From assembly GCF_024171995.1 (NCBI RefSeq), contig NZ_JAMTCT010000032.1, positions 1 to 51,138 of the forward strand: DNA of 51,138 bases, written 5' to 3'. A program made the position numbers and the translations under genes. The notes beneath the pieces are model-generated. The model searched no databases. It was not told where the DNA came from and saw only the letters and a program-made list of their open reading frames with translations. This document shows, one piece after another, positions 17,702-51,050 of this stretch (position 1 is its first letter; the number at the start of each line of letters is the position of its first letter). This DNA comes from Promicromonospora umidemergens. GTDB taxonomy: Bacteria; Actinomycetota; Actinomycetes; Actinomycetales; Cellulomonadaceae.

Positions 17702-17719
17702 CGGAAGCGCCCTCGGGAC

Positions 17720-17772
17720 GACCATGCACCTGCTGCCAGGATCAGGACTCGCCTGGCAGCAGGTGCATGGTC
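17720..17772. terminator. 21-bp perfect hairpin between convergent genes
   Basis: A perfect 21-bp stem (17720-17740 with 17752-17772) closes an 11-base loop between the beta-helix gene (stop 17701) and the altronate dehydratase gene (stop 17793). The stem includes GCACCTGCTGCCAGG. Bidirectional terminator is the simplest reading. Confidence 0.75.
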
Positions 17773-17792
17773 ATGTCAGGGACGCCGAGCCG

Positions 17793-19467: not shown

Positions 19468-19543
19468 GAGCCCCCGGTCGGCAGAACGTCAGGTGATCGG
19501 CACCTCGGGTTACCGATCACCTGACGTTCTACCGACCGGGCTC
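19468..19543. repeat. Dispersed palindromic element, copy A (also likely terminator)
   Basis: Near-perfect inverted repeat of about 31 bp: arms 19468-19500 and 19513-19543 around a 12-base loop. The inner arm reads GGTCGGCAGAACGTCAGG then TGATCGG. Closely related copies occur at 44741-44802 (inside lutC) and 48595-48677. This copy lies after the stop of the solute-binding protein gene and before uxaA, both on the minus strand. Confidence 0.85.
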
Positions 19544-27600: not shown

Positions 27601-29232
27601 ATGCGAACACCACCGGTCCTCCGCCCGCGCCGAGTCGTCGGCCCGACGCCGGGGAACGCGCCAGCGCTGCCCGTCACCCGCCCGCTCGTCCGTTCCCTGG
27701 CGCTGCCCCTGGCGCTGGCCGTGGGGATGGCCGGCGTGCTGGTCGCCGTCGGGCCGCCGGCCGCGGCGCACCCGGCCGAAGGTGCGGGGGCCGCCGTCGG
27801 GTACGCGTCGGGCGGGCACGCGCAGGGCGGGCACTCGCAGGGCGGGCACTCGCAGGGCGGGCACTCTTCGGGCGGGCACTCGCAGGGCGGACACCGCGGC
27901 GACCTCGGCCGCGAGACCATCTCGACCGACGACGGCTGGGCCGCCTGGTCCGGCCCCACGTTCCCGGAGGGTGTGGAGCGACAGGCCCGGCCCACGACGG
28001 GTGGAGCCGCGGCCACGCGGGCCGAGGTCTACGAGGTCGACACCTGGCAGGAGCTGCGCGACGCGCTCGCCGGCCGCGAGGGCGGCAGCCAGAACGACGC
28101 CCGGTACAACGAGACCCCGCGGATCGTGTACGTCACGGGTGCGATCGATGCGTTCACCGCTCCGGACGCAACCCGGCTGACCTGCGAGGACCTCGCCTCT
28201 CAGGTGACGGTGGAGGGTACCGGCGAGCCGTTCTCGATGGACGACTACATCGCGCAGTACGACCCGTCCGGCCCGTGGGGTCGGGCCGATCCGGAGGGGC
28301 CGCTGGAGCAGGCGCGTGATGCGGCGGCGAGCCTGCAGGCGGCGCAGACCCAGCAGCACGTCGGCTCGAACGTGACGATCGTGGGGGTCGGCGACGACGC
28401 CCAGATCTCCGGCGCGAACCTCCGCGTGCGGGACGCGCACAACGTCATCCTCCGGAACCTGCGGTTCTCGGACGGCTATGACTGCTTCCCGCAGTGGGAC
28501 CCCGGTGACGGCGAGGCCGGGAACTGGAACTCCGCCTACGACAACGTCTCGCTGTGGACGTCCACCAGTGTGTGGGTGGACCACTCCACGTTCGACGACG
28601 GAGCGCACCCCGCCGGCTCGCTCCCCGTCGTCTACGGGCGGCCGTTCGAGGTGCACGACGGTCTGCTCGACATAACGCACGGCTCGGACCTGGTCACCGT
28701 GTCGTACAACGAGTTCCTCAGCCACGACAAGACGATGCTGATCGGCTCGTCGGACTCCCGCACCCAGGACCGTGGGCAGCACCGCGTGACGCTGCACCAC
28801 AACTACTGGGAGGACATCGGCCAGCGCGCACCGCGCGTCCGGTACGGCGACGTGCATGCCTACAACAACTACTACCGGCAGACCCGCCGACAGGCCGAGG
28901 CGGGCTCGTTCCAGTACTACTGGGGCTCCGGCAGGGAGTCGAGCCTCGTGGTGGAGAACAACGCGGTCCGGCTGGCCCGCGGGTCCGACCCCGCGAAGGT
29001 GGTCGGCGCGTACGGCGGCACGATGCTCAGCGAGTCGGGCACCACGCTGAACGGCCGGCGGACAGACCTCCTGGCGGCCTACAACGCGACGGCGTCGACG
29101 CCGCTGGCCGACGAGGCGCGCTGGGCGCCGTCGGACGCGTACCGGTACCGGCTGCTGCCGACGGTCGCGGTCCCGTGGGTGGTCCTGGCCCGTGCGGGAG
29201 CGGGCGAGCTGCGCTCGACCTCCCCGAGGTAG
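27601..29232 (+). CDS. Secreted pectate lyase, polysaccharide lyase family 1
   Basis: A 543-residue secreted pectate lyase. The signal region is residues about 1-57 (VRSLALPLALAVGMAGVLVAVG, then PAAAHPA). A His-rich repeat of GGHSQ type follows (71-100). The catalytic beta-helix spans about 140-520: RIVYVTGAID, NVTIVGVGDDAQISGANLRV, NVILRNLRF, WVDHSTFDDG for calcium binding, HDGLLDITHGSDLVTVSYNEF and RHHYW-type HHNYWEDIGQRAPRVRYGDVHAYNNYY, whose Arg acts as base. It cleaves polygalacturonate by beta-elimination outside the cell. The ATG has AGGGAG upstream. A candidate LacI operator is 38 bases before it and a long hairpin follows the stop. Confidence 0.92.
   Translation: MRTPPVLRPRRVVGPTPGNAPALPVTRPLVRSLALPLALAVGMAGVLVAVGPPAAAHPAEGAGAAVGYASGGHAQGGHSQGGHSQGGHSSGGHSQGGHRGDLGRETISTDDGWAAWSGPTFPEGVERQARPTTGGAAATRAEVYEVDTWQELRDALAGREGGSQNDARYNETPRIVYVTGAIDAFTAPDATRLTCEDLASQVTVEGTGEPFSMDDYIAQYDPSGPWGRADPEGPLEQARDAAASLQAAQTQQHVGSNVTIVGVGDDAQISGANLRVRDAHNVILRNLRFSDGYDCFPQWDPGDGEAGNWNSAYDNVSLWTSTSVWVDHSTFDDGAHPAGSLPVVYGRPFEVHDGLLDITHGSDLVTVSYNEFLSHDKTMLIGSSDSRTQDRGQHRVTLHHNYWEDIGQRAPRVRYGDVHAYNNYYRQTRRQAEAGSFQYYWGSGRESSLVVENNAVRLARGSDPAKVVGAYGGTMLSESGTTLNGRRTDLLAAYNATASTPLADEARWAPSDAYRYRLLPTVAVPWVVLARAGAGELRSTSPR
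27811..27897 (+). repeat. 15-bp tandem repeat coding for GGHSQ units
   Basis: Nearly six units of GGCGGGCACTCGCAG run in frame inside the pectate lyase gene and encode GGHAQ, GGHSQ, GGHSQ, GGHSS, GGHSQ, GGHRG between signal peptide and catalytic domain. The near identity of units points to recent slippage expansion. Confidence 0.9.
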
Positions 29233-41410: not shown

Positions 41411-42109
41411 TCAGCGCCCGCCAAGACCCGCCTCGCGGTAGAACCCCTCGATGTGCTCGCGCATGAGCCGCTCTGCCGTCGCGGCGTCCTGCCCCGCGAC
41501 GGCATCGACGATCGCGCGGTGCTCCGCGCACAGGCGCGCAGCGGTCGTCGGCCACTCGTCGAGCGCGGCGGCGCCCGCCACGACGTAGGACGCGACGGCC
41601 GACCGCAGGCCGATCAGGACCGCCTCCACGAGCTGGTTGCCACCCAGCCGGACCAGCTCGATGTGAAAGTCCTGGTCGTGCTCCACGAACGTGGCGACGT
41701 CGAGGTCGGGATCAGCCATCGCCTCGACGTGTCCGCGCACCCTCGCCAGCGCGGCGTCGTCGGGCGCCCGGGCCGCGGCGTCACGCACCACCCCGGTCTC
41801 GAGCAGCACGCGCGTCCGGACGACGTCGGACACGGGCAGCGTGCCGGAGGCCACGTGCAGCCGCACCGCCGCACCCAGGCCGGCCGCCGGCCGGTCGATC
41901 ACGGTGGCGCCGGCGCTCGGGCCGGAGCCGACGGCGGTGCGCACGATGCCCATCGCCTCGAGGACGCGGATCGCCTCGCGCACCGACGGGCGGGACACCC
42001 CCAGCTCCTCCGCGAGCGCCCGCTCGGCCGGGAGCCGCTCGCCGATGGACCACTTGCCCGCGGCGAGGCCGGACTCGATCTTGGCCAGGACGCGCTCATG
42101 GGTTCTCAC
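41411..42109 (-). CDS. FadR/GntR family regulator, probable repressor of lutABC
   Basis: A 232-residue GntR regulator of the FadR subfamily. The winged helix covers about 1-68: KWSIGERLPAERALAEELGVSRPSVREAIRVLEAMGIV. The C-terminal FCD ligand domain spans about 85-225 with the metal-binding pattern: Asp in LETGVVRDAAARA, His in DQDFHIELV and later His in CAEHRAIVDAV. Regulators of this branch beside lutABC or lldD answer to lactate. The frame extends to 42139, but that start would sit inside the palindrome at 42125-42141; GTG at 42109 is preferred. Confidence 0.88.
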   Translation of the reverse strand: MRTHERVLAKIESGLAAGKWSIGERLPAERALAEELGVSRPSVREAIRVLEAMGIVRTAVGSGPSAGATVIDRPAAGLGAAVRLHVASGTLPVSDVVRTRVLLETGVVRDAAARAPDDAALARVRGHVEAMADPDLDVATFVEHDQDFHIELVRLGGNQLVEAVLIGLRSAVASYVVAGAAALDEWPTTAARLCAEHRAIVDAVAGQDAATAERLMREHIEGFYREAGLGGR

Positions 42110-42124
42110 CGGGCCATCGTACTT

Positions 42125-42163
42125 CTGTGGTCTGTCCACAGTGGGCTATGGTGAGGACAGACC
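42125..42163. promoter_or_regulatory. Paired operator sites between FadR-type regulator and lutA
   Basis: CTGTGG-TCTGT-CCACAG (42125-42141) is a 6-bp-arm palindrome. GGTCTGTCC inside it (42129-42137) recurs inverted at 42155-42163. TATGGT (42147-42152), a possible -10 element, lies between them; GAAGGAG before the lutA ATG is the ribosome-binding site. Confidence 0.65.
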
Positions 42164-42179
42164 TCGAAGGAGAGTGCCC

Positions 42180-42989
42180 ATGCGCATCGCCCTGGCCGCG
42201 ACCTGCATCGCCGACGCCATGTTTCCGCAGGCCCCGAGGGCCGTCGTGACCCTGCTGGAACGGCTGGGCCACGAGGTCGTCTTCCCCGCCGGGCAGGCGT
42301 GCTGCGGTCAGATGCACGTCAACACCGGCTACCTCGCCGACGCCGTTCCGGTGGTCCAGAACCATGTGCGCACGTTCGCCCCGGTGACCGACGGCGAGTG
42401 GGATGCCGTCGTCGTGCCGTCCGGTTCGTGCACGGGGTCGATCCGGCACCAGCAGGCCATGGTCCTGGAACGTGCCGGCCTGCACTCCGAGGCGCGCGCG
42501 GCAGCCGCCGTCGCCGAACGCACCTACGAGTTCTCCGAGCTGCTGGTCGACGTGCTCGGCGTGACCGACGTCGGCGCCTGGTTCCCGCACCGGGTGACCT
42601 ACCACCCCACGTGCCACTCGCTGCGGATGCTCGGCGTCGGCGACAAGCCCGAGCGGCTGCTGCGAGCGGTCGAGGGGCTGGAGCTCGTCCCGCTCGCCGA
42701 GGCGGAGGGCTGCTGCGGGTTCGGCGGGACGTTCGCCCTCAAGAACGCGGACACGTCGGAGGCGATGCTGCAGGACAAGGTCGCCACCGTCGTCGACACG
42801 GGGGCCGAGGTGCTCACCGCCGGCGACTGGTCGTGCCTGATGCACATCAACGGCGGACTCTCGCGCGGTGGCACGGGCGTACGGCCCATGCACCTCGCGG
42901 AGATCCTCGCCTCGACGCGGGAGTCGCCGACCGTGCCGAGCGGGCCCGGCTCCGACAGCGTGCGGACCGGGACGGAGGTTGCCCGATGA
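42180..42989 (+). CDS. lutA: L-lactate utilisation protein LutA (CCG-domain Fe-S oxidoreductase)
   Basis: A 269-residue LutA/YkgE homologue. It has two cysteine-rich CCG domains: GQACCGQMHVNTG near residue 40 with SGSCTGSI, and YHPTCHSLRMLGVG with AEGCCGFGGTFALKN and SCLMHINGG in the second half. These ligate iron-sulfur clusters in the LutABC complex, which oxidises L-lactate to pyruvate. The ATG at 42180 has AAGGAG 6-8 bases upstream. Its TGA overlaps the ATG of lutB (ATGA at 42986-42989). Confidence 0.92.
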   Translation: MRIALAATCIADAMFPQAPRAVVTLLERLGHEVVFPAGQACCGQMHVNTGYLADAVPVVQNHVRTFAPVTDGEWDAVVVPSGSCTGSIRHQQAMVLERAGLHSEARAAAAVAERTYEFSELLVDVLGVTDVGAWFPHRVTYHPTCHSLRMLGVGDKPERLLRAVEGLELVPLAEAEGCCGFGGTFALKNADTSEAMLQDKVATVVDTGAEVLTAGDWSCLMHINGGLSRGGTGVRPMHLAEILASTRESPTVPSGPGSDSVRTGTEVAR

Positions 42990-44506
42990 GCACGTTCCTC
43001 GGCATGCCCTCCGCCCGCACCGGGCGCGGGCCGAGCCCCTCCGCCGCACCCGACACCCTGGCCGGCGTCGGCCGCCCCGAGGACCCGCTGCACTGGGGCG
43101 CCTCGTTCCCCGACGCCGCGAAGGCAGCGCTCGACAACGACCAGCTGCGCCGCAACCTTGGCAAGGCGACGTCGACCATCCGGACCAAGCGCGCCCGCGT
43201 GGTCGACGAGGTGCCCGACTGGGAGGCGCTGCGCGACACCGGGTCCGCGGTGAAGACCGACGTCATGGCGCGCCTGCCGGAGCTGCTCGAGGAGCTCGAG
43301 CGCAACGTCACGGCCCGCGGCGGGGTGGTGCACTGGGCACGGGACGCCGCAGAGGCCAACCGGATCGTCGCCTCGCTGGTCCGGGAGAAGGAGACCGACG
43401 AGGTCGTCAAGGTCAAGTCCATGGCGACCCAGGAGATCGGGCTCAACGAGGCGCTCGCCGAGGAGGGCATCGCCGCGGTCGAGACGGACCTGGCGGAGCT
43501 CATCGTGCAGCTCGCCGACGACATGCCCTCGCACATCCTGGTGCCCGCGATCCACCGCAACCGCACCGAGATCCGTGACATCTTCCTCGAGCGCATGGCC
43601 GACGCCCCGCCCGACCTGACGGACGTGCCGCGCGAGCTCGCGATGGCGGCCCGCGCGCACCTGCGGCGCAAGTTCCTCTCGGCGAAGGTCGCGATCAGCG
43701 GCGCCAACTTCGCCGTCGCAGACACCGGGACGCTCGCCGTCGTGGAGTCCGAGGGCAACGGCCGCATGTGCCTCACGCTGCCCGAGACCCTGATCACCGT
43801 GATGGGCATCGAGAAGCTGGTCCCGACCTTCGACGACCTCGAGGTGTTCCTCCAGCTCCTGCCGCGGTCCTCGACCGGTGAGCGGATGAACCCGTACACC
43901 TCCATGTGGACGGGCGTGACGCCCGGCGACGGGCCGCAGGAGTTCCACCTGGTGCTGCTCGACAACGGCCGCACCAAGGTGCTCGCCGACGAGGCGGGCC
44001 GCTCGGCGCTGAACTGCATCCGCTGCTCCGCGTGCCTCAACGTCTGCCCCGTGTACGAGCGGGTGGGCGGCCACGCGTACGGCTCGGTCTACCCCGGCCC
44101 GATCGGCGCGATCCTCACGCCGCAGCTCACCGGTGAGCAGTCGGACCTGCCGTACGCCTCCACGCTGTGCGGCGCCTGCTACGAGGTGTGCCCCGTCAAG
44201 ATCGACATCCCGTCGATCCTCGTAGAGCTGCGCGCCCGCGAGGTGTCCCTGACCGCGGGCTCGTCGGGAGACACCGCCGACCGGGTCTGGAGCGCGGCCA
44301 TGAAGGCGGCGTCCTTCGCGATGGCCGACGGCGCACGCTTCCGCCGCGCCGCCCGGGTACCGCGGCTGCTGCGCGCGATCTCGCGCAACGGGGTCATCAA
44401 GAGGCTGCCGTTCCCCGGCTCTCTGTGGACCCGTTCCCGGGACCTGATGGAGCCCCCGAAGCAGACGTTCCGCGACTGGTGGGCCGGGCGAGAGGAGCAA
44501 CGATGA
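42986..44506 (+). CDS. lutB: L-lactate utilisation iron-sulfur protein LutB
   Basis: A 506-residue LutB/YkgF homologue. The N-terminal LUD-type domain (about 60-300) carries VKVKSMATQEIGLNEALAEEGI, THILVP-like SHILVPAIHRNR and GANFAVADTGTLAVVESEGNGR. The C-terminal ferredoxin-like part has the two 4Fe-4S motifs NCIRCSACLNVCPVYERVGGHAYGS and LCGACYEVCPVKIDIPSIL. Electron-transfer subunit of lactate oxidation. Starts inside lutA's stop and ends overlapping lutC's ATG (44503-44506), so all three genes are translationally coupled. Confidence 0.93.
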   Translation: MSTFLGMPSARTGRGPSPSAAPDTLAGVGRPEDPLHWGASFPDAAKAALDNDQLRRNLGKATSTIRTKRARVVDEVPDWEALRDTGSAVKTDVMARLPELLEELERNVTARGGVVHWARDAAEANRIVASLVREKETDEVVKVKSMATQEIGLNEALAEEGIAAVETDLAELIVQLADDMPSHILVPAIHRNRTEIRDIFLERMADAPPDLTDVPRELAMAARAHLRRKFLSAKVAISGANFAVADTGTLAVVESEGNGRMCLTLPETLITVMGIEKLVPTFDDLEVFLQLLPRSSTGERMNPYTSMWTGVTPGDGPQEFHLVLLDNGRTKVLADEAGRSALNCIRCSACLNVCPVYERVGGHAYGSVYPGPIGAILTPQLTGEQSDLPYASTLCGACYEVCPVKIDIPSILVELRAREVSLTAGSSGDTADRVWSAAMKAASFAMADGARFRRAARVPRLLRAISRNGVIKRLPFPGSLWTRSRDLMEPPKQTFRDWWAGREEQR

Positions 44507-45234
44507 CCGACGCAAAGGCGGAGATCCTGTCCCGCATCCGCGCCGCGCTGGGCTCGGAGGAGGATTCCGCGGGGACGGCTGGCGCCGTACCCCGGGAGTA
44601 CCGGTCGGCCGGTGAGCACGCGCCAGGGTCCGCGGCCGTGCTGGCCCTCCTGATCGACCGCCTTGAGGACTACAAGGCGCACGTCCACCGAACGGCTCCC
44701 GCGGAGATCCCGGCGCTGCTCGCGCGGCTCATCGCAGAGAGGTCGGCAGAACGTCAGGAGGTCGGCAGCTCGAACTACCGATCACCTGACGTTCTACCGA
44801 CCACCCCGGAGGCGGGCGGGCGCCGCTCCGTCGTCGTGCCCAGCGGGCTGGAGCCCGGGTGGCTCTCCGGGCTGGCGGGCGTGGATGTGCGCACCGACTC
44901 GCGTGACGCTCCCCTGTCGGCGGCCGAGCTGGACGAGACGGACGCCGTCGTGACCGCCGCGCGGGTGGCCGTCGCCGAGACCGGCACCATCGTGCTGGAC
45001 GGCGAGCCCGACCAGGGCCGGCGCGCGATCTCCCTGGTGCCCGACGTGCACGTGTGCGTGGTCCGGACCGACCAGGTGGTGCAGACCGTCCCTGAGGCGG
45101 TGCGCCTGCTCGGTACCGATCCTGGCCGGCCCCTGACCTGGATCAGCGGGCCGAGCGCGACGAGCGACATCGAGCTCGAACGCGTGGAGGGCGTGCACGG
45201 GCCCCGGACGCTGCACGTGGTGCTCGTCTCCTGA
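44503..45234 (+). CDS. lutC: LutC-like LUD domain protein with in-frame palindromic insertion
   Basis: A 243-residue LutC/YkgG homologue. The N-terminus MTDAKAEILSRIRAALG and the C-terminal LUD domain (AVVTAARVAVAETGTIVLDG, RRAISLVPDVHVCVV, WISGPSATSDIELERVEGVHGP) are typical. Between the N-terminal helices and the first LUD strand (RRSVVVPSGL), residues about 80-100 (RSAERQEVGSSNYRSPDVLP) are encoded by a copy of the dispersed palindrome otherwise found between genes. The reading frame is kept, so the protein is likely functional with an extra surface loop. Third gene of the lut operon; converges with the DUF2000 gene, both stops lying in one 14-bp palindrome. Confidence 0.9.
   Translation: MTDAKAEILSRIRAALGSEEDSAGTAGAVPREYRSAGEHAPGSAAVLALLIDRLEDYKAHVHRTAPAEIPALLARLIAERSAERQEVGSSNYRSPDVLPTTPEAGGRRSVVVPSGLEPGWLSGLAGVDVRTDSRDAPLSAAELDETDAVVTAARVAVAETGTIVLDGEPDQGRRAISLVPDVHVCVVRTDQVVQTVPEAVRLLGTDPGRPLTWISGPSATSDIELERVEGVHGPRTLHVVLVS
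44741..44802. repeat. Dispersed palindromic element, copy B, inside lutC
   Basis: Arms GGTCGGCAGAACGTCAGG (plus AGGTCGG) at 44741-44765 and 44778-44802 around a 12-base loop, three mismatches across 25 pairs. The right arm is identical over 25 bases to the inner right arm of copy A (19513-19537). Confidence 0.88.
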
Positions 45235-45243
45235 CCGGTCAGG
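45230..45243. other. 14-bp palindrome spanning both convergent stop codons
   Basis: CCTGACCGGTCAGG is a perfect palindrome that holds the TGA of lutC (45232-45234) and, on the other strand, the TGA of the DUF2000 gene (45239-45241). Without a loop it is not a convincing terminator. Confidence 0.5.
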
Positions 45244-45652
45244 TGTGCAGCGTGGCGCCCTTGACCACCTTGTCCACCACCCGCCGCTCGCCCGCCACCG
45301 CGACCCCGACCAGGTCGAGCTTCTCCGTGGCGACGCTCGCGACGGCGGCCCGGTTGTCGACGTCGTTCCCCGTCGCGAACAGGTCTGCCGTGTAGACGCC
45401 GATGCGCAGGCCGCGCGTGCCGGCGCGCTCGCGGATCGTGGCGAGCCGGTCGCCGTCGGCGACCATGACCATCACCGGCGTGCCGAGCATCGGAAGGTAC
45501 TCGCGGCCGTCGGCGTCCCGGTAGGGCTCCCCGACGAGCTCGGGGTAGGCGGCGGTCACCGCGCTGGCCAGGAAGGCGGTCACGTTGCCCTCCTGCCAGC
45601 CCAGCAGGTCGTCCCGCAGCACGATCACGATCTTGGCCTGTTCAAAAGTCAT
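45239..45652 (-). CDS. DUF2000 family protein
   Basis: A 137-residue protein matching DUF2000: FEQAKIVIVLRDDLLGWQEGNVTAFLASAV near the N-terminus, GTPVMVMVADGDRLATIRERA in the middle, and the closing VGVAVAGERRVVDKVVKGATLHT. The family has a peptidyl-tRNA hydrolase II-like fold but no proven activity. The ATG at 45652 is preferred over a GTG three codons upstream because the conserved region begins right after it. Divergent from the AraC regulator, a very common pairing in bacteria, which suggests the regulator controls it. Confidence 0.85.
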   Translation of the reverse strand: MTFEQAKIVIVLRDDLLGWQEGNVTAFLASAVTAAYPELVGEPYRDADGREYLPMLGTPVMVMVADGDRLATIRERAGTRGLRIGVYTADLFATGNDVDNRAAVASVATEKLDLVGVAVAGERRVVDKVVKGATLHT

Positions 45653-45702
45653 ACCGCTCACAGTGCGGCCGCGAGCGGGCCGGAATCTTGTACGTTCTTG
45701 AC

Positions 45703-46533
45703 ATGGGTCTGCTCGGTTCGGCCGCGGAGGCGGCGCCTGACGTGGTGCGCGCCTGGCGGCCGGGGATCGCCGGCGTCGCCGAGGTGCTGCACGCCGCCTG
45801 GCACGAGCACGCCTACCCCGCCCACACGCACGACACCTGGACCGTGCTGGTCGTCGACAGCGGGCTGATCGGCTACGGCCTGGACGGTCACGAGCACGCG
45901 GCCCAGCACACCGGCGTGACCGTGCTGCCGCCGGGCGTCGTGCACGACGGCCGCTCCGTGACCGCCGCCGGCTTTCGCAAGCGCGTCGTCTACCTGGAAC
46001 CCGCGGTGCTCGACGACGGTCTGGTCGGCCGGGCCGTCGACGCGCCGCTCGTACTTGACGACGCGCTCCGCGCCCGCTTCGTCGGCCTCGACCGGGCCCT
46101 CACCGTGCGCGAGGACCTCGCGGCAGAGAGCCTGCTCGCCCTGGTCACGGAAGGTCTGGCCTGGCATCTCTCCGGCCGCCCGACGCCGCCGCGCGAACCC
46201 GCTACCGCCTCGACCGCCCGCCGCGCCCGCGACCTGCTCGACACCGACCCCGCCCAGCCCGTCCGGCTGGCGGAGGTCGCCGCCGAGCTCGACGTCACCG
46301 TGCCGCACCTGGTCCGGGCGTTCACCCGCGAGGTCGGCCTCCCGCCGCACCAGTACCTCGTAGGCCGGCGCCTGGACCTGGCCCGCCGTCGGCTGCTCGC
46401 TGGTGAGCCGGCAGCCGACGTCGCGACCGCCACCGGGTTCCACGACCAGTCGCACCTCACCCGCCACTTCCGCCGCCTGCTCCGCACCACCCCGACCCGC
46501 TACCAGCGCGGGTCCCTCCTCTTCGAGGCCTAA
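45703..46533 (+). CDS. AraC family transcriptional regulator
   Basis: A 276-residue AraC-type regulator. The N-terminal cupin-like sensor (AraC_binding) is at about 15-150, with AWHEHAYPAHTHDTWTVLVVDSG and VLPPGVVHDGRSV. The double helix-turn-helix is at about 175-272: RARDLLDTDPAQPVRLAEVAAELDVTVPHLVRAFTREVGLPPHQYLVGRRLDLARRRLL and DVATATGFHDQSHLTRHFRRLLRTTPTRYQ. ATG at 45703 is used; an in-frame TTG at 45688 is an alternative. Divergent from the DUF2000 gene over 50 bases. The stop codon is inside a strong hairpin. Confidence 0.9.
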   Translation: MGLLGSAAEAAPDVVRAWRPGIAGVAEVLHAAWHEHAYPAHTHDTWTVLVVDSGLIGYGLDGHEHAAQHTGVTVLPPGVVHDGRSVTAAGFRKRVVYLEPAVLDDGLVGRAVDAPLVLDDALRARFVGLDRALTVREDLAAESLLALVTEGLAWHLSGRPTPPREPATASTARRARDLLDTDPAQPVRLAEVAAELDVTVPHLVRAFTREVGLPPHQYLVGRRLDLARRRLLAGEPAADVATATGFHDQSHLTRHFRRLLRTTPTRYQRGSLLFEA

Positions 46534-46574
46534 GTTTCTTCGCTTTGAGCCGCCTCAAAGCGAAGGAACTTAGG
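46529..46574 (+). terminator. 21-bp hairpin over the AraC stop codon
   Basis: Arms 46529-46549 and 46554-46574 (left arm with AAGTTTCTTCGCTTTGAG) pair over 21 bases with one G-T pair and a 4-base loop; a short T-run follows. It includes the TAA stop (46531-46533). The best textbook-like intrinsic terminator in the window. Confidence 0.8.
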
Positions 46575-46653
46575 TTTCGAAGGGAACATCTCACGCCCGC
46601 ACGGACCAGCTAGCAGCGTGCGGCACGCCCGCCGTCCGGAAGAATGGCCTCTC

Positions 46654-47310
46654 GTGACCGACCCTGCGCCCGAGCCCACCCTCTTCGACCCGCCGCCGGG
46701 TGCCCGGCGCCCCCGGGCACGGGTAGTGCTGCTCACCGGGCCGTCGGGATCCGGGAAGACGTCGCTCACGCAGCGGCTCGGCCTGCCGGTGGTGCAGCTC
46801 GACGACTTCTACCTCGACATCGACCACCCTGGTCTGCCGCAGCGGTACGGCAGCGTGGACTGGGACAGCCCGGCGACCTGGGACGGCAAGGGTGCGCTCG
46901 CCGCGCTGCACGACCTGGCCACCGAGGGCCGGGCCGACGTCCCCGTGTACGACATCCCGACGTCGCGCCGGACCGGGATGCGCCGGCTCGACATCGGCGA
47001 CTCGCCCCTCATCCTGGCCGAGGGCATCTTCGCGGCGCACCTCGTCGACGAGTGCCGTGCCGAGGGCCTGCTCGCCGACGCGATCTGCCTGTCCCGTCCC
47101 CGGCTGATCACCTTCTGGTTCCGGTTCCTGCGGGACGTCGCGGAGGCACGCAAACCGATCGGCACGCTGCTGCGCCGCGGTACCTCGCTCCTCCGCGCGG
47201 AGCCGGCGATGATCGAGCGGTGGGTCGCGCTGGGTTGCCGCCAGACGTCACGCGCTCAGGCGGAGAAGGACATCCGCAACCTGCTTGTGCAGAAGTCCTC
47301 GAACGCGTAA
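46654..47310 (+). CDS. Uridine kinase-like P-loop protein
   Basis: A 218-residue P-loop kinase. The Walker A motif GPSGSGKTS is at residues 29-37, followed by VVQLDDFYLDIDHPGLPQRYGSVDWDSPATWD, very typical of the uridine kinase/phosphoribulokinase group, with LILAEGIFAAHLVDECRAEGL providing Walker B. It would phosphorylate a nucleoside or similar hydroxyl in the cytoplasm; authentic uridine kinase activity is not certain. GTG at 46654 is chosen as it starts just before the conserved part; the frame is open to 46618. Confidence 0.85.
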   Translation: MTDPAPEPTLFDPPPGARRPRARVVLLTGPSGSGKTSLTQRLGLPVVQLDDFYLDIDHPGLPQRYGSVDWDSPATWDGKGALAALHDLATEGRADVPVYDIPTSRRTGMRRLDIGDSPLILAEGIFAAHLVDECRAEGLLADAICLSRPRLITFWFRFLRDVAEARKPIGTLLRRGTSLLRAEPAMIERWVALGCRQTSRAQAEKDIRNLLVQKSSNA

Positions 47311-47380
47311 TCCACGCGTAACCGGACTGCCATGTAGCCCACACGCGCGGGGCTCACTCTGGGCACAGGAGGTGGTGTCT

Positions 47381-48586
47381 GTGATCCAGCGCAACAGCTT
47401 GCGTGTGCTCTCGCTGTACGAAGGCTTCTTCAGCGGTGGGGCTCGTGTCCTGCACTCGACAGTGGTCGCCGGTCTGCATCAGGGCGGCCGTCAGCAGCAT
47501 TCCGTGCTGAGCCTGCACCACGAGGTCCGGCGTGAGGCCACCCTCCAGCGGATGGAGGACGACCCCCGCTACCACGCCCTGCGCGCCGCCGGCGTCCGCA
47601 TCGGTTCCCTGGGCCGGAGCACCGACGCGGGCCACGACCCGCGCGTCTTCTCCGAGGCGGAGCTCCGGGCCGCGGTGCGCCAGGCAGCCGGCTCGCACGT
47701 GGTGCTCTCGCTCAAGGAGCAGCCGCTCCGGCTCGTGAACCAGGACGCGTTCCCGGACCGCCCGGTGATCGCGTGCCTGCACCGGTCCGACCCGGAACAC
47801 CAGGGCGACGCGCTCGGTGACCTCCTGACCGCTGCGGAGCGCGGCCGGCTCGCCGCCGTCGTCTGCTGTGCGGAGTCCACGCGGGACGCCTACCGCGAGG
47901 CCGGCGTGCCCGCCGGCCTGCTCCGGGTGGTGCCGAACGGCATCAACCTCGCCCGGTTCCGCCCGGTCCAGGGCGCGCGCCGGCTGGCCCTGCGGGGGGC
48001 GGCCGGGGTGCCGAGCGACGCGTCGGTCGTCGTCTACGCCGCGCGGTACGACGAGATGAAGAACCCCGAGCTCTTCCTCCGGTCGGCCCGCACGTTCCTG
48101 GAGCTCGAGCCCCGCGGCCACGTCCTGATGTGCGGCGCCGGGATGAGCGCGGCCAACCTCGAGCTGCGGAACGACCTCGCCCGCATCTTCGGCGACCGGC
48201 CCGACCTGCTCGAACGCCTGAACCTGCTGGGTGTGCGCCACGACATGGAGCTGGTCTACGCGACGGCCGACGTCGTGGCCCTCACCTCGACGTTCGGCGA
48301 GGCAGCGCCGCTGTGCCTCATCGAGGGCTCGATGTGCGGGGCGGTGCCGGTCACCACCCCCGTTGGCGACGCGCCGTCGATAGTCGAGCGCATCGGGTTC
48401 GTGACGTCGTTCGAGCCGGCCGAGATCGCCGCGACCTGGATCGAGGCAGCGGCCCGGCGCGCCGAGCTGGAGTCCGCGCGGACCGCCGTCCGGCCCCGGT
48501 TCAGCCACGTCCGGATGATCGCCGGCTACTCGAGCATCATCGAGCGCACCCACCGCGAGGCGGCGCTGCGGCCGGCCCGGGTCTGA
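47381..48586 (+). CDS. Glycosyltransferase family 4
   Basis: A 401-residue GT-B glycosyltransferase. The N-terminal half begins LRVLSLYEGFFSGGARVLHSTVVAGL, where GGA is the usual donor-loop glycine motif. The C-terminal half contains VPNGINLARFRPV, VVYAARYDEMKNPELFLRSA and the EX7E-type region TFGEAAPLCLIEGSMCGAVPVTTPVGDAPSIV. It would add a sugar from a nucleotide donor to an exported or cell-wall acceptor, not identifiable here. GTG at 47381 has AGGAGGT 7 bases upstream, better than the two GTGs just before it. Followed by a copy of the dispersed palindrome. Confidence 0.87.
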   Translation: MIQRNSLRVLSLYEGFFSGGARVLHSTVVAGLHQGGRQQHSVLSLHHEVRREATLQRMEDDPRYHALRAAGVRIGSLGRSTDAGHDPRVFSEAELRAAVRQAAGSHVVLSLKEQPLRLVNQDAFPDRPVIACLHRSDPEHQGDALGDLLTAAERGRLAAVVCCAESTRDAYREAGVPAGLLRVVPNGINLARFRPVQGARRLALRGAAGVPSDASVVVYAARYDEMKNPELFLRSARTFLELEPRGHVLMCGAGMSAANLELRNDLARIFGDRPDLLERLNLLGVRHDMELVYATADVVALTSTFGEAAPLCLIEGSMCGAVPVTTPVGDAPSIVERIGFVTSFEPAEIAATWIEAAARRAELESARTAVRPRFSHVRMIAGYSSIIERTHREAALRPARV

Positions 48587-48594
48587 CGGCCCGT

Positions 48595-48677
48595 CCGCTC
48601 CGGATGGTCGGCAGGACGTCAGATGATCGGCAGTCCGAGCTGCCGATCACCTGACGTCCTGCCGACCATCGGAGCGG
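48595..48677. repeat. Dispersed palindromic element, copy C (also likely terminator)
   Basis: Arms 48595-48630 and 48643-48677 with a 12-base loop; about 35 paired bases with one bulge and one mismatch. The inner arm reads GGTCGGCAGGACGTCAGATG, differing by few bases from copies A and B. It lies between the GT4 gene and the LacI gene. Confidence 0.87.
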
Positions 48678-48728
48678 CCCGCCCCCTTCCCGAACCCAAG
48701 GACCCGCGGGACACGGCAAGATGACCTC

Positions 48729-49820
48729 ATGTCCGACGCCCCCGTCACCCTGAGCCAGGTCGCCCGCGAGGCCGGTGTCTCGCTCGCCACGGCGTCGCGC
48801 GCCATCAACGGGAGCGCCACGCGCAGCGTCCGCCAGGACCTGCGCGAGCGCGTCCTGGAGACGGCACGCCGCCTCGACTACTCACCGGACCCGAGCGCCC
48901 AGGCCATGGCCCGCGGCCGGACGTCGGCCCTCGGGCTCGTCGTGCACGACATCGCCGACGCGTACTTCTCGACCATCGCGGCGGGCGTGACGCGCGCCGC
49001 CGAGCGCGAGGGCCTCATCGTGACCCTGGCGTCCACCGAGCAGAGGCGGGACCGCGAGGTCGCCTTCGTCGAGCTCGCGCGGCGCCAGCGGTCGCGCGCG
49101 ATCATCCTGGCCGGCAGCCGGTCCGTGCCGCCGGAGACCCTGCCGGGGACGCTCTCGGCGGAGGCCGGCACCCGGATGGAGAGCGACGCCAAGGCCCTGG
49201 AGGCCGCGCTGACCTCGTTCCGGGAGGCCGGCGGCGGCGTGGCGACGATCGGCCAGGGCGTCGGCGACCTGCCCGTCGTGGAGATCGACAACGCGGGCGG
49301 CGCCGGAGCCCTCGCGCGGGCGCTCCACGAGCTCGGGTACCGACGCTTCGGGGTGCTCACCGGTCCGCCCGACCTGCGCACCGCGGCCGACCGCACCAAG
49401 GGCTTCCTCGACACGCTCGCCGCGCTGGGCTGCCCGGCGCTCGACCGGGACGTGGTGGACGGGGCCTTCACGCGCGACGGCGGCCACGACGCCATGACGA
49501 GGCTGCTCTCGCGCACCGGCGCCGCGACGGCCGACTCTCAGCCGGACCGGCCCGAGCTGGTGTTCGCCGTCAACGACGTCATGGCGGTGGGCGCGATGGC
49601 GGCCGTCCGCGACGCGGGCCTCAGCGTGCCCGACGACGTCGCGGTGGCCGGGTTCGACGACATCCACACCCTGCGCGACGTGTCCCCAGGGCTCACGACC
49701 GTGCGGATCCCGCTGGACGAGGTCAGCGAGGCGGCGACCATGCTGGCCCTGGGAGCCGAGGCGTCCGGCACGGTGGTGCGGGGCGACGTCGTCCTGCGGG
49801 ACTCCACCCCGCGGCGCTAG
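48729..49820 (+). CDS. LacI family transcriptional regulator
   Basis: A 363-residue LacI/GalR regulator: TLSQVAREAGVSLATASRAINGSAT at the N-terminus, hinge YSPDPSAQAMARGRT, and sensor domain with LGLVVHDIADAYFSTIAAGV, VFAVNDVMAVGAMAAV and DVAVAGFDDIHTLRDVSPGLTTV. About 80 bases downstream is the Gfo/Idh gene with a GGAAAGCGCATTCCC site in front, the likely operator. The same motif core occurs before the Gfo/Idh gene at 29308, so the regulator may act on both. No such site is seen before its own start. Confidence 0.92.
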   Translation: MSDAPVTLSQVAREAGVSLATASRAINGSATRSVRQDLRERVLETARRLDYSPDPSAQAMARGRTSALGLVVHDIADAYFSTIAAGVTRAAEREGLIVTLASTEQRRDREVAFVELARRQRSRAIILAGSRSVPPETLPGTLSAEAGTRMESDAKALEAALTSFREAGGGVATIGQGVGDLPVVEIDNAGGAGALARALHELGYRRFGVLTGPPDLRTAADRTKGFLDTLAALGCPALDRDVVDGAFTRDGGHDAMTRLLSRTGAATADSQPDRPELVFAVNDVMAVGAMAAVRDAGLSVPDDVAVAGFDDIHTLRDVSPGLTTVRIPLDEVSEAATMLALGAEASGTVVRGDVVLRDSTPRR

Positions 49821-49859
49821 AGCATGTCGCGACGAGCGGCCGGTGCGCTATGGTGGGCC

Positions 49860-49874
49860 GGAAAGCGCATTCCC
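49860..49874. promoter_or_regulatory. LacI-type operator before the Gfo/Idh gene
   Basis: GGAAAGCGCATTCCC, an imperfect palindrome (arms GGAA/TTCC around GCGC), 25 bases upstream of the GTG start, next to the LacI gene. Shares GGAAAGCGC with 30797-30810. Confidence 0.6.
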
Positions 49875-49898
49875 AGTTACGACGATGGAGTCTTGCCC

Positions 49899-51050
49899 GT
49901 GACCACACTTCGCATCGCCATGAACGGCGTCACCGGCCGCATGGGTTACCGCCAGCACCTCGTGCGCTCGATCCTGCCGATCCGCGACCAGGGCGGCGTC
50001 ACGCTCCCCGACGGTTCCCGGATCCAGGTCGAGCCCGTGCTGGTGGGCCGCAACGCGGACAAGCTCAAAGAGCTCGCCGCGCTGCACGACGTCAAGCACT
50101 GGACCACCGACGTCGACGCCGCCATCGCGGACGCCGACATCGTGTTCGACGCCGCCATGACCAACCTGCGCCCCGCGACGCTCGCCAAGGCGATGCGCCA
50201 GGGCAAGCACGTCTACACCGAGAAGCCGACGGCGGAGACGCTCACCGAGGCCATCGAGCTCGCGCGGCTCCAGGCCGAGACGGGCGTGACCGTCGGCGTC
50301 GTGCACGACAAGCTGTACCTCCCGGGCCTGGTGAAGCTGCGCCGCCTCGTGGACGAGGGGTTCTTCGGCCGCATCCTGTCGCTGCGCGGCGAGTTCGGCT
50401 ACTGGGTGTTCGAGGGCGACTCGCAGCCCGCCCAGCGCCCCTCCTGGAACTACCGCACCGAGGACGGCGGCGGCATCACCACCGACATGTTCTGCCACTG
50501 GAACTACGTGCTGGAGGGCATCCTCGGGCAGGTCAAGACGGTGACGGCCAAGACGGTCACGCACATCCCGGCCCGCTGGGACGAGTCCGGCAAGGAGTAT
50601 GCGGCGACGGCCGACGACGCCGCGTACGGCATCTTCGACCTCACCACCCCGGGCGGGGACGACGTCGTCGCGCAGATCAACTCGTCCTGGGCCGTGCGCG
50701 TGTTCCGCGACGAGCTGGTCGAGTTCCAGGTGGACGGCACCCACGGCTCCGCCGTCGCGGGCCTGCGCGAGTGCCGCGCCCAGCACCGCTCGCACACGCC
50801 CAAGCCCGTCTGGAACCCGGACCTGCCGGTCACCGAGCCGTTCCGCGACCAGTGGCTCGACGTCCCCGCGAACGCCGACCTCGACAACGGCTTCAAGCTG
50901 CAGTGGGAGGAGTTCCTGACCGACGTCGTCGCCGGGCGCCCGCACCGCTACGACCTGCTGTCGGCCGCGCGCGGAGTGCAGCTGGCCGAGCTGGGGATGC
51001 GGTCGTCGGCGGAGGGCCGCCGTCTCGACGTCCCGGAGATCGTGCTGTGA
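49899..51050 (+). CDS. Gfo/Idh/MocA family oxidoreductase
   Basis: A 383-residue NAD(P)-dependent dehydrogenase-like protein. The Rossmann start is LRIAMNGVTGRMGYRQHLVRS, an unusual GVTGRMG glycine motif; the EKP site is GKHVYTEKPTAETLTEA. The C-terminal domain contains EDGGGITTDMFCHWNYVLEGILG, with the conserved Asp and His of this superfamily, and GTHGSAVAGLRECRAQHRS. It ends in GVQLAELGMRSSAEGRRLDVPEIVL. GGAG lies 8 bases before the GTG. First gene of an operon that runs out of the window, controlled by the LacI-type site at 49860. Confidence 0.88.
   Translation: MTTLRIAMNGVTGRMGYRQHLVRSILPIRDQGGVTLPDGSRIQVEPVLVGRNADKLKELAALHDVKHWTTDVDAAIADADIVFDAAMTNLRPATLAKAMRQGKHVYTEKPTAETLTEAIELARLQAETGVTVGVVHDKLYLPGLVKLRRLVDEGFFGRILSLRGEFGYWVFEGDSQPAQRPSWNYRTEDGGGITTDMFCHWNYVLEGILGQVKTVTAKTVTHIPARWDESGKEYAATADDAAYGIFDLTTPGGDDVVAQINSSWAVRVFRDELVEFQVDGTHGSAVAGLRECRAQHRSHTPKPVWNPDLPVTEPFRDQWLDVPANADLDNGFKLQWEEFLTDVVAGRPHRYDLLSAARGVQLAELGMRSSAEGRRLDVPEIVL

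Follow-up and report, generated by a model that had tools for sequence, protein, structure and literature searches.

A family of palindromic repeats in frame within lutC, cydC and mshB of Promicromonospora

What allows a hairpin to be retained within a coding gene? This old question is raised by lutC of Promicromonospora umidemergens, in which an initial annotation had recognized a 62-base palindrome at 44741-44802 as an insertion in frame. The analysis described here makes the question testable; to date, it is the palindrome in the DNA that proves to be preserved and not the segment of protein. The window, i.e. the whole stretch of 51,138 nucleotides that was analyzed, makes up contig 32 in a genome of 6.6 Mb (G000 in the following; the other genomes of the genus are G001 to G012).

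The palindrome in lutC and its relatives in the genome

The text refers to five features of the window:

42299..44506, plus strand: ORF holding lutB, directly 5' of lutC (Pfam LUD_dom and LutB_C; start codon not fixed)
44503..45234, plus strand: lutC, complete ORF of 243 codons including the insert, overlapping the end of the preceding ORF in ATGA
44739..44804, plus strand: 66-bp palindromic element in frame within lutC, 22 codons, residues 80-101 RSAERQEVGSSNYRSPDVLPTT
19474..19539, no strand assigned: intergenic copy of the 66-bp element (covariance model and sequence match)
48604..48669, no strand assigned: intergenic copy of the 66-bp element (covariance model and sequence match)

The position given for the palindrome was exact. 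When two further bases are counted at either end (GT/AC in most copies, GA/AC in the lutC copy), the element is 66 bp long. Its 22 codons agree with the roughly 21 extra residues that had been counted, and the ORF is intact, as had been stated. The gene is a putative lutC, named for its LUD domain (Pfam LUD_dom profile match, E = 1.1e-26, residues 49-242) and for its position after a lutB-like ORF. The six nearest named LutC matches all come from Promicromonospora, records of the genome itself being possibly excluded. The insert had been placed between a helical N-terminus and the LUD domain, and this part of the description has to be corrected: the Pfam match encloses residues 80-101, so that the insert lies inside the domain match and not ahead of it. 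In an AlphaFold2 model of LutC (30 sequences, mean pLDDT 78.7), the insert is predicted to form the end of helix 66-84 and the loop preceding strand 109-113, at low to medium confidence (block means of pLDDT 61 and 59 across residues 81-100).

The predicted folding energy of the lutC element is -42.7 kcal/mol, compared to -17.2 ± 2.7 kcal/mol for shuffled sequences, none of which (0 of 200) folded equally well. Together with the 65 places at which the element was found in the genome, this rules out a chance palindrome. An assembly artefact is ruled out by the same lutC insert in named public genomes (L042-L044, L046).

A covariance model built from 40 copies gave 130 matches over both strands of the window genome, which correspond to 65 places, two of them partial. 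BLAST on both strands gave 77 matches, and a strict pattern gave 12 places. In this search and in that of the genus, the best 150 candidates per genome were scored, and decayed copies may be missed. The two intergenic palindromes that had been reported in the window at 19468 and 48595 both exist, with their true starts 6-9 bases later, at 19474 and 48604. The element folds into a single stem of about 30 pairs with an internal CGTC or GGTC, and its TCGG-A and GTCA stretches are near-invariant in coding and other copies alike. A known Rfam family was rejected, as there was no match anywhere in the window at the gathering threshold.

As judged by a home-made gene finder, the copies of the window genome lie between convergent genes in 25 cases, tandem genes in 30 and divergent genes in 6, with 3 copies within a CDS and 1 case one-sided. 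The corresponding numbers for four other species, obtained with the same kind of gene finder, are 25, 31, 2, 2 and 3, the two CDS cases being cydC in L241 and a candidate ORF in L248. Across the five genomes, 134 of 163 stop-to-element distances are within -5 to 40 nt, with a median of 16. The intergenic copies occupy the place of a transcript end. They do not have the form of an intrinsic terminator, that is, a hairpin followed by a T-run, and a scan of 42000-50000 flagged neither the 48604 nor the 44739 copy. If the element acted as RNA, G-U mismatches would be expected to be more frequent than A-C mismatches. Tandem copies, oriented by their genes, have 96 versus 70, which points only weakly to such a role, and in the coding copies the ratio is the opposite of the prediction (37 G-U versus 48 A-C).

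Several other repeats were seen alongside. Partial second element starts (ggtcggcaggacgtc) stand just 5' of two intergenic copies (L038, L039). The window also contains a long inverted repeat of a different family at 46521-46582 (29-base arms, 90% complementary, 4-base loop), another inverted repeat at 17707-17785 (34-base arms, 82% complementary) and a 15-base tandem repeat with six registered copies at 27783-27902.

In-frame copies, silent sites and arm pairing

Codon statistics and homology identify three in-frame copies among the 65 places, namely those in lutC, cydC and mshB. The expectation that other genes would carry the same kind of peptide was thereby borne out, by cydC and mshB of the window genome and likewise by their orthologues. 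CydC matches TIGR02868 with 494 bits (cut-off 329), and its insert follows Walker A and precedes the next conserved strand. For MshB, the match to TIGR03445 is 32.5 bits for the window-genome fragment and 139.5 bits for the relative in G002, both below the cut-off of 224; the G002 relative has a PIG-L match above its cut-off.

Within the genus, the lutC insert is present in seven of 12 genomes (G000, G002, G003, G004, G005, G009 and G010) and absent from five (G001, G006, G008, G011 and G012), G007 giving no match to the gene. All seven carriers have it at an identical site and in an identical frame. Hence, residues 80-101 are an insertion when aligned to homologues, and the contrary case, in which all related LutC proteins would have a similar segment with no palindrome in the DNA, did not occur. 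The variation in presence and absence that had been suggested among strains is found between species; within a species, the two P. iranensis records both carry the insert. The element is present in cydC of nine of 12 genomes (G000, G002, G003, G005, G007, where it is shortened, G008, G009, G010 and G011; absent from G001, G006 and G012; no gene match in G004) and in mshB of nine of 13 (absent from G001, G007, G009 and G012). Its right end CCGATCAC is common to all nine mshB carriers, and a CCGATCAC-type variant occurs at the opposite end in four of the 39 other copies of the 40-copy alignment. The common right end suggests inheritance of the mshB insertion.

A codon test of 128 loci in five genomes, which included the model matches of four more species minus six in known insertions, brought out no further host gene. 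The frame used by the hosts is open in 96 of the 130 strand readings of the window-genome copies, and the other two frames in 37 and 13. The coding copies in lutC, cydC and mshB always use the frame that is most often open.

Three loci deserve mention in their own right. The mshB of the window genome (contig 12, L012:523-1766) is read in two frames 5' of the element, with the N-terminal part in one and the C-terminal part plus the element in another, and this could be either a true frameshift or an assembly error. In G005, the last codons of an ORF at L248:1162-2464, which by eye resembles an M20-type hydrolase, run through an element; this ORF may be an additional host, the fourth, or else an artefact of read-through. 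The cydC of the same genome (L185) has extra partial copies of the start of the repeat (RSAEGRSAEARSAEGQ) beside the element, as if its left end had been tandem-duplicated.

A comparison of the carriers shows that in all three genes the DNA of the insert is kept more tightly than the peptide. Identity at fourfold sites is 0.88 in the insert versus 0.63 in the rest of the gene for lutC (7 carriers), 0.90 versus 0.65 for cydC (8 carriers, the shortened G007 copy being dropped) and 0.80 versus 0.62 for mshB (9 carriers). None of the equally long windows elsewhere in these genes attains the fourfold identity of the insert (0 of 154 in lutC, 0 of 215 in cydC and 0 of 83 in mshB), where codons were compared only at agreeing residues and the windows overlap. 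The amino-acid identity of the insert, which is 0.80, 0.60 and 0.69, respectively, is equalled or exceeded in 95 of 154, 204 of 215 and 58 of 83 windows. In terms of whole-codon identity, one lutC window of the 154 equals the insert. GC3 is 0.63-0.68 in the inserts versus 0.91-0.94 elsewhere, as AT-ending codons are retained. Since the silent sites of the insert are exceptional and its amino acids ordinary, it is the DNA and not the peptide that is kept.

The two arms of the palindrome co-vary, and this includes the coding copies. The 40 genome copies contain 69 double-changed pair cells, compared to 25.6 ± 5.0 in shuffled data, and the 24 coding copies contain 19, compared to 9.6 ± 2.3. For syntenic places, a comparison of 45 pairs yielded 92 compensated base pairs versus 11.6 ± 3.1 in shuffled data. 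These 45 are the pairs, out of 69, in which both places hold a 66-base element; they are non-independent, since several species share a place, and as their identities range from 0.33 to 0.89, a few are perhaps not true orthologues. The arms pair in 85.3% of positions in the coding copies versus 92.6% in the genome set.

In the coding frame, the alignment shows that third codon positions in one arm face second positions in the other. A silent change therefore cannot be copied to the other arm without a change in the protein, and we propose that this coupling of codon positions by the arms explains why silent sites are frozen in a peptide that is otherwise unexceptional; copying between the arms and selection on the hairpin would each have this effect. 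Likeness among coding copies decreases from orthologous copies (0.837) to copies in different genes of one species (0.822) and to unrelated pairs (0.806). The within-species value was matched by 33 of 2000 shuffles; it is a weak hint that leaves room for gene conversion.

History in the genus and a second palindrome

Copies of the element were found in all 13 genomes of the genus (best 150 candidates per genome scored). Among 150 genomes of the family, 55 have it, and they represent 12 of 25 genera, Promicromonospora included (best 34 candidates per genome scored). In order to follow the insertions, a tree was calculated from the codons of lutC, cydC and mshB with the insert columns removed; it rests on these three genes, and several of its supports are 61-88. 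G001 and G012 fall outside all the remaining genomes. Their small numbers of copies, which are found at 2 places in G001 and 8 in G012 versus 13 to about 64 elsewhere (matches halved, best 150 candidates per genome scored), agree with this outside position.

Parsimony requires four changes for the lutC insertion and two each for those of cydC and mshB. One gain per gene on the branch after G012 fits these numbers, with three losses in lutC (G006, G008 and G011), one in cydC (G006) and one in mshB (the G007+G009 branch); gains and losses may also have been combined differently. The lutC of G006, which has no insert, reads GCG CCG ACC ACC by eye at the point where the element of the carriers ends in CCGACCAC, and this looks like the footprint of a lost copy.

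At the place syntenic to 48604, two P. iranensis strains, P. sukumoe and MEB111 have the element, and P. panici, P. soli and P. thailandica are without it (eight named relatives, of which P. kroppenstedtii was not judged). Four relatives were compared, and 26 of the 65 places of the window genome have a counterpart in one or more of them, with flank synteny on one side being taken as enough. The 66-bp palindromic repeats are an old, largely vertically inherited family.

A different palindrome of about 50 bp occupies the same place in LutC in Isoptericola sp. BMS4, I. luteus, Isoptericola sp. 4D.3 and Krasilnikoviella flava. It reads GAGTTGTCAG...CTGACAACTC in BMS4 and I. luteus, is present as two in tandem in I. 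luteus, is decayed in 4D.3 and has changed ends in K. flava. The pattern GTTGTCAG-N-CTGACAAC occurs 22 times in I. luteus, 23 times in BMS4 and three times in K. flava, with no occurrence in a backward control or in the two other genomes searched. The set analyzed consists of 44 places distinct by their context, all with a core of 46 bp, and the BMS4 lutC copy (L048), 45 in total.

Fifteen of these 45 copies lie in frame in ten host genes, as judged from the ORF and a family match. In BMS4, 10 of 23 are genic: heavy-metal P-type ATPase (twice), a thioredoxin/NHL protein, rhamnulokinase, 2-oxoacid dehydrogenase E2 (twice), a biotin carboxylase-type subunit, MenD, a NasC-like nitrate reductase and LutC. 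In I. luteus, 4 of 19 are genic (HutH, NasC-like twice and LutC), and in K. flava 1 of 3 (HrpA). HutH, the P-type ATPase, HrpA and MenD pass their NCBIfam cut-offs; the other hosts fall below, several being cut by the end of the fetched stretch, and take their names from Pfam together with the best NCBIfam match. The rhamnulokinase insert coincides with a gap of 14 residues in the alignment to E. coli rhamnulokinase (2cgj). The HutH insert is just past the aligned part and the MenD region is loosely aligned, so in these two proteins, where there is no clean gap, the insertion is shown by the repeat alone.

All 15 genic copies are read in the frame ELS...PDNS, even though 85 of 88 strand readings leave a second frame open. 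Were the two frames equally suitable, the use of one frame in ten host genes would be unlikely (about 0.002 by our own arithmetic). Coding use of other frames was rejected, as none of 23 listed ORFs was gene-like by eye. For cydC, a shared insertion was ruled out in the Isoptericola-type genomes, ten of the ten searched being without it, and a plasmid origin of the palindrome was rejected after a search of plasmids. The interior arms co-vary here as well (375 paired cells versus 282.5 ± 10.1). A GTCAG stretch is common to both palindrome families, and the BMS4 locus L048 has a distant match of 52.7 bits to the Promicromonospora model, because of which a common origin of the two families is possible.

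Further observations concern the Isoptericola-type element. It often forms tandem pairs about 60-62 bases apart (L169, L173, L174, L292, L293, L294, L302 and L308). Two viral contigs of IMG/VR match its end pattern (L312:1474-1522 and L313:477-525). The K. flava lutC palindrome (L061) ends in CTGTCAG/CTGACAG versus TTGTCAG/CTGACAA, so that both arms differ together, and one of the differences changes the protein.

Explanations and comparison with known systems

We consider it fairly probable that the intergenic members of this old, largely vertically inherited family are 3'-end hairpins and that its genic members are passengers kept by the matching of their arms. Judging from their position and fold, the intergenic copies would act between convergent or tandem genes, in all likelihood as two-way transcription ends or as stabilizers of mRNA 3' ends. 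The family would have spread early in the genus by a copying process that leaves no target duplication. Insertions into genes may have survived only where the length of 22 codons, the usually open frame and a surface loop allowed folding. Within a gene, the hairpin would then last by arm matching, which could come from template switching during replication, from selection on the hairpin or from both, and the genic copies themselves would be passengers. Template switching has been argued to make and to keep hairpins (PMC8794818), but taken alone it does not explain the near-invariant TCGG-A and GTCA. More tentatively, we suggest that one reading frame is tolerated, that the hairpin, and not the peptide, is what is preserved, that it goes on evolving as a single unit even though it is translated, and that it freezes the silent sites of its host. 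Protein-coding palindromes would then be a recurrent habit of this actinobacterial family, seen with two repeats in the same LutC loop.

It is rather unlikely that the hairpin within lutC, cydC and mshB is instead a selected signal and no passenger, for example a protein-binding DNA site or an mRNA structure that tunes the operon. Such a signal would account for the frozen silent sites of the three genes, for the AT-ending codons that keep GC3 low in the inserts and for the TCGG-A and GTCA shared by coding and other copies. It is difficult to reconcile with the absence of the insert from 5 of 12 lutC, 3 of 12 cydC and 4 of 13 mshB genes and with its losses on the tree, and a regulation shared by the three genes is, in our judgement, not evident.

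The many copies, both intergenic and genic, across a bacterial family could also be those of a selfish element that is still mobile, either MITE-like or a REP moved by a RAYT. We regard this as improbable. Target site duplication, as in MITEs, was not found: none of the 111 copies has a flanking direct repeat of at least 5 bp, and four have one of 4 bp. The best pair of genome copies is 94% alike and the median pair 79%, and the 26 syntenic places noted above argue against recent movement. A REP moved by a RAYT was rejected because Y1_Tnp (PF01797, the only transposase family searched) is absent from all 13 genus genomes, whereas 5 of 14 control genomes are positive. A plasmid or phage origin was likewise rejected, as there were no matches of the Promicromonospora element in plasmids or phages and none to its exact half-element pattern in viral contigs.

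That the encoded peptide is a useful linker held by protein selection is very improbable: its single frame, hydrophilic character and presence across much of the genus are outweighed by an amino-acid identity that most other windows equal or exceed while none equals that of its silent sites, by its absence from several species and by a loop modeled at a pLDDT of about 60, i.e. at low to medium confidence.

The two palindrome families are apparently two cases of in-frame palindromes in free-living GC-rich actinobacteria, i.e. of a kind of repeat best known from Rickettsia. Gains and losses can be placed on a tree, and three genes in up to 13 genomes allow a comparison of silent sites, arms and peptide. 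In annotation, inserts of 15-25 residues in LutC, CydC, MshB, RhaB, NasC-like and other proteins of these genera may be repeat-derived. In a limited search of the open-access literature, we recognized no earlier report of in-frame coding palindromes in Actinobacteria.

Three known systems resemble the element in part. In the mitochondria of hairworms, coding genes contain inverted repeats whose arms are kept alike, and template switching has been discussed there (PMC6649704). The matched arms within coding genes are common to both. The hairworm repeats are perfect and up to 284 bp long, and the text of that study that bears on them describes no dispersed sequence family, whereas here one such family is involved.

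CGTC- and GTAG-tagged REPs are short palindromes near the 3' ends of ORFs, some of them genic, in several phyla, and RPE-4 and RPE-6 are counted as the CGTC type (PMC3733652). The phyla listed in that source for either tagged type exclude Actinobacteria, and M. tuberculosis is mentioned there as having REP-like repeats that lack a tag. The Promicromonospora element is similar in its position near ORF 3' ends, its few genic copies and its CGTC or GGTC. A CGTC-tagged REP has the tag at its end, a stem of 8-9 bp (PMC3733652) and a loop of 4-5 nt, whereas here the CGTC is internal to a single stem of about 30 pairs, and the 13 genus genomes are without a RAYT by the Y1_Tnp search.

The likeness to Rickettsia palindromic elements (RPEs), which the initial annotation had pointed out, holds for the way of working and, judged by length, not for membership. 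The hallmark of RPEs is palindromic repeats in frame inside unrelated conserved genes, with intergenic copies as well, and nearly half of them are in ORFs according to a review (PMC10969869, PMC2229807). The Promicromonospora palindrome is likewise found both between and inside genes, and it has entered conserved proteins with the frame kept in lutC, cydC and mshB, the window-genome mshB being two-framed 5' of the element; in the Isoptericola-type family, a third of the copies (15 of 45) are genic. RPEs are 105-146 bp long (PMC2229807), as opposed to 66 bp or about 50 bp in these Actinobacteria. The arms of RPEs lose their identity over time, in contrast to the hairworm palindromes, which are kept (PMC6649704), and to those of Promicromonospora, which co-vary even in coding copies. 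As it differs in length, in the terminal tag and in the absence of a RAYT, we file the Promicromonospora element as neither an RPE nor a REP. It works like an RPE and is not one: it represents a new, actinobacterial form of protein-coding palindrome.
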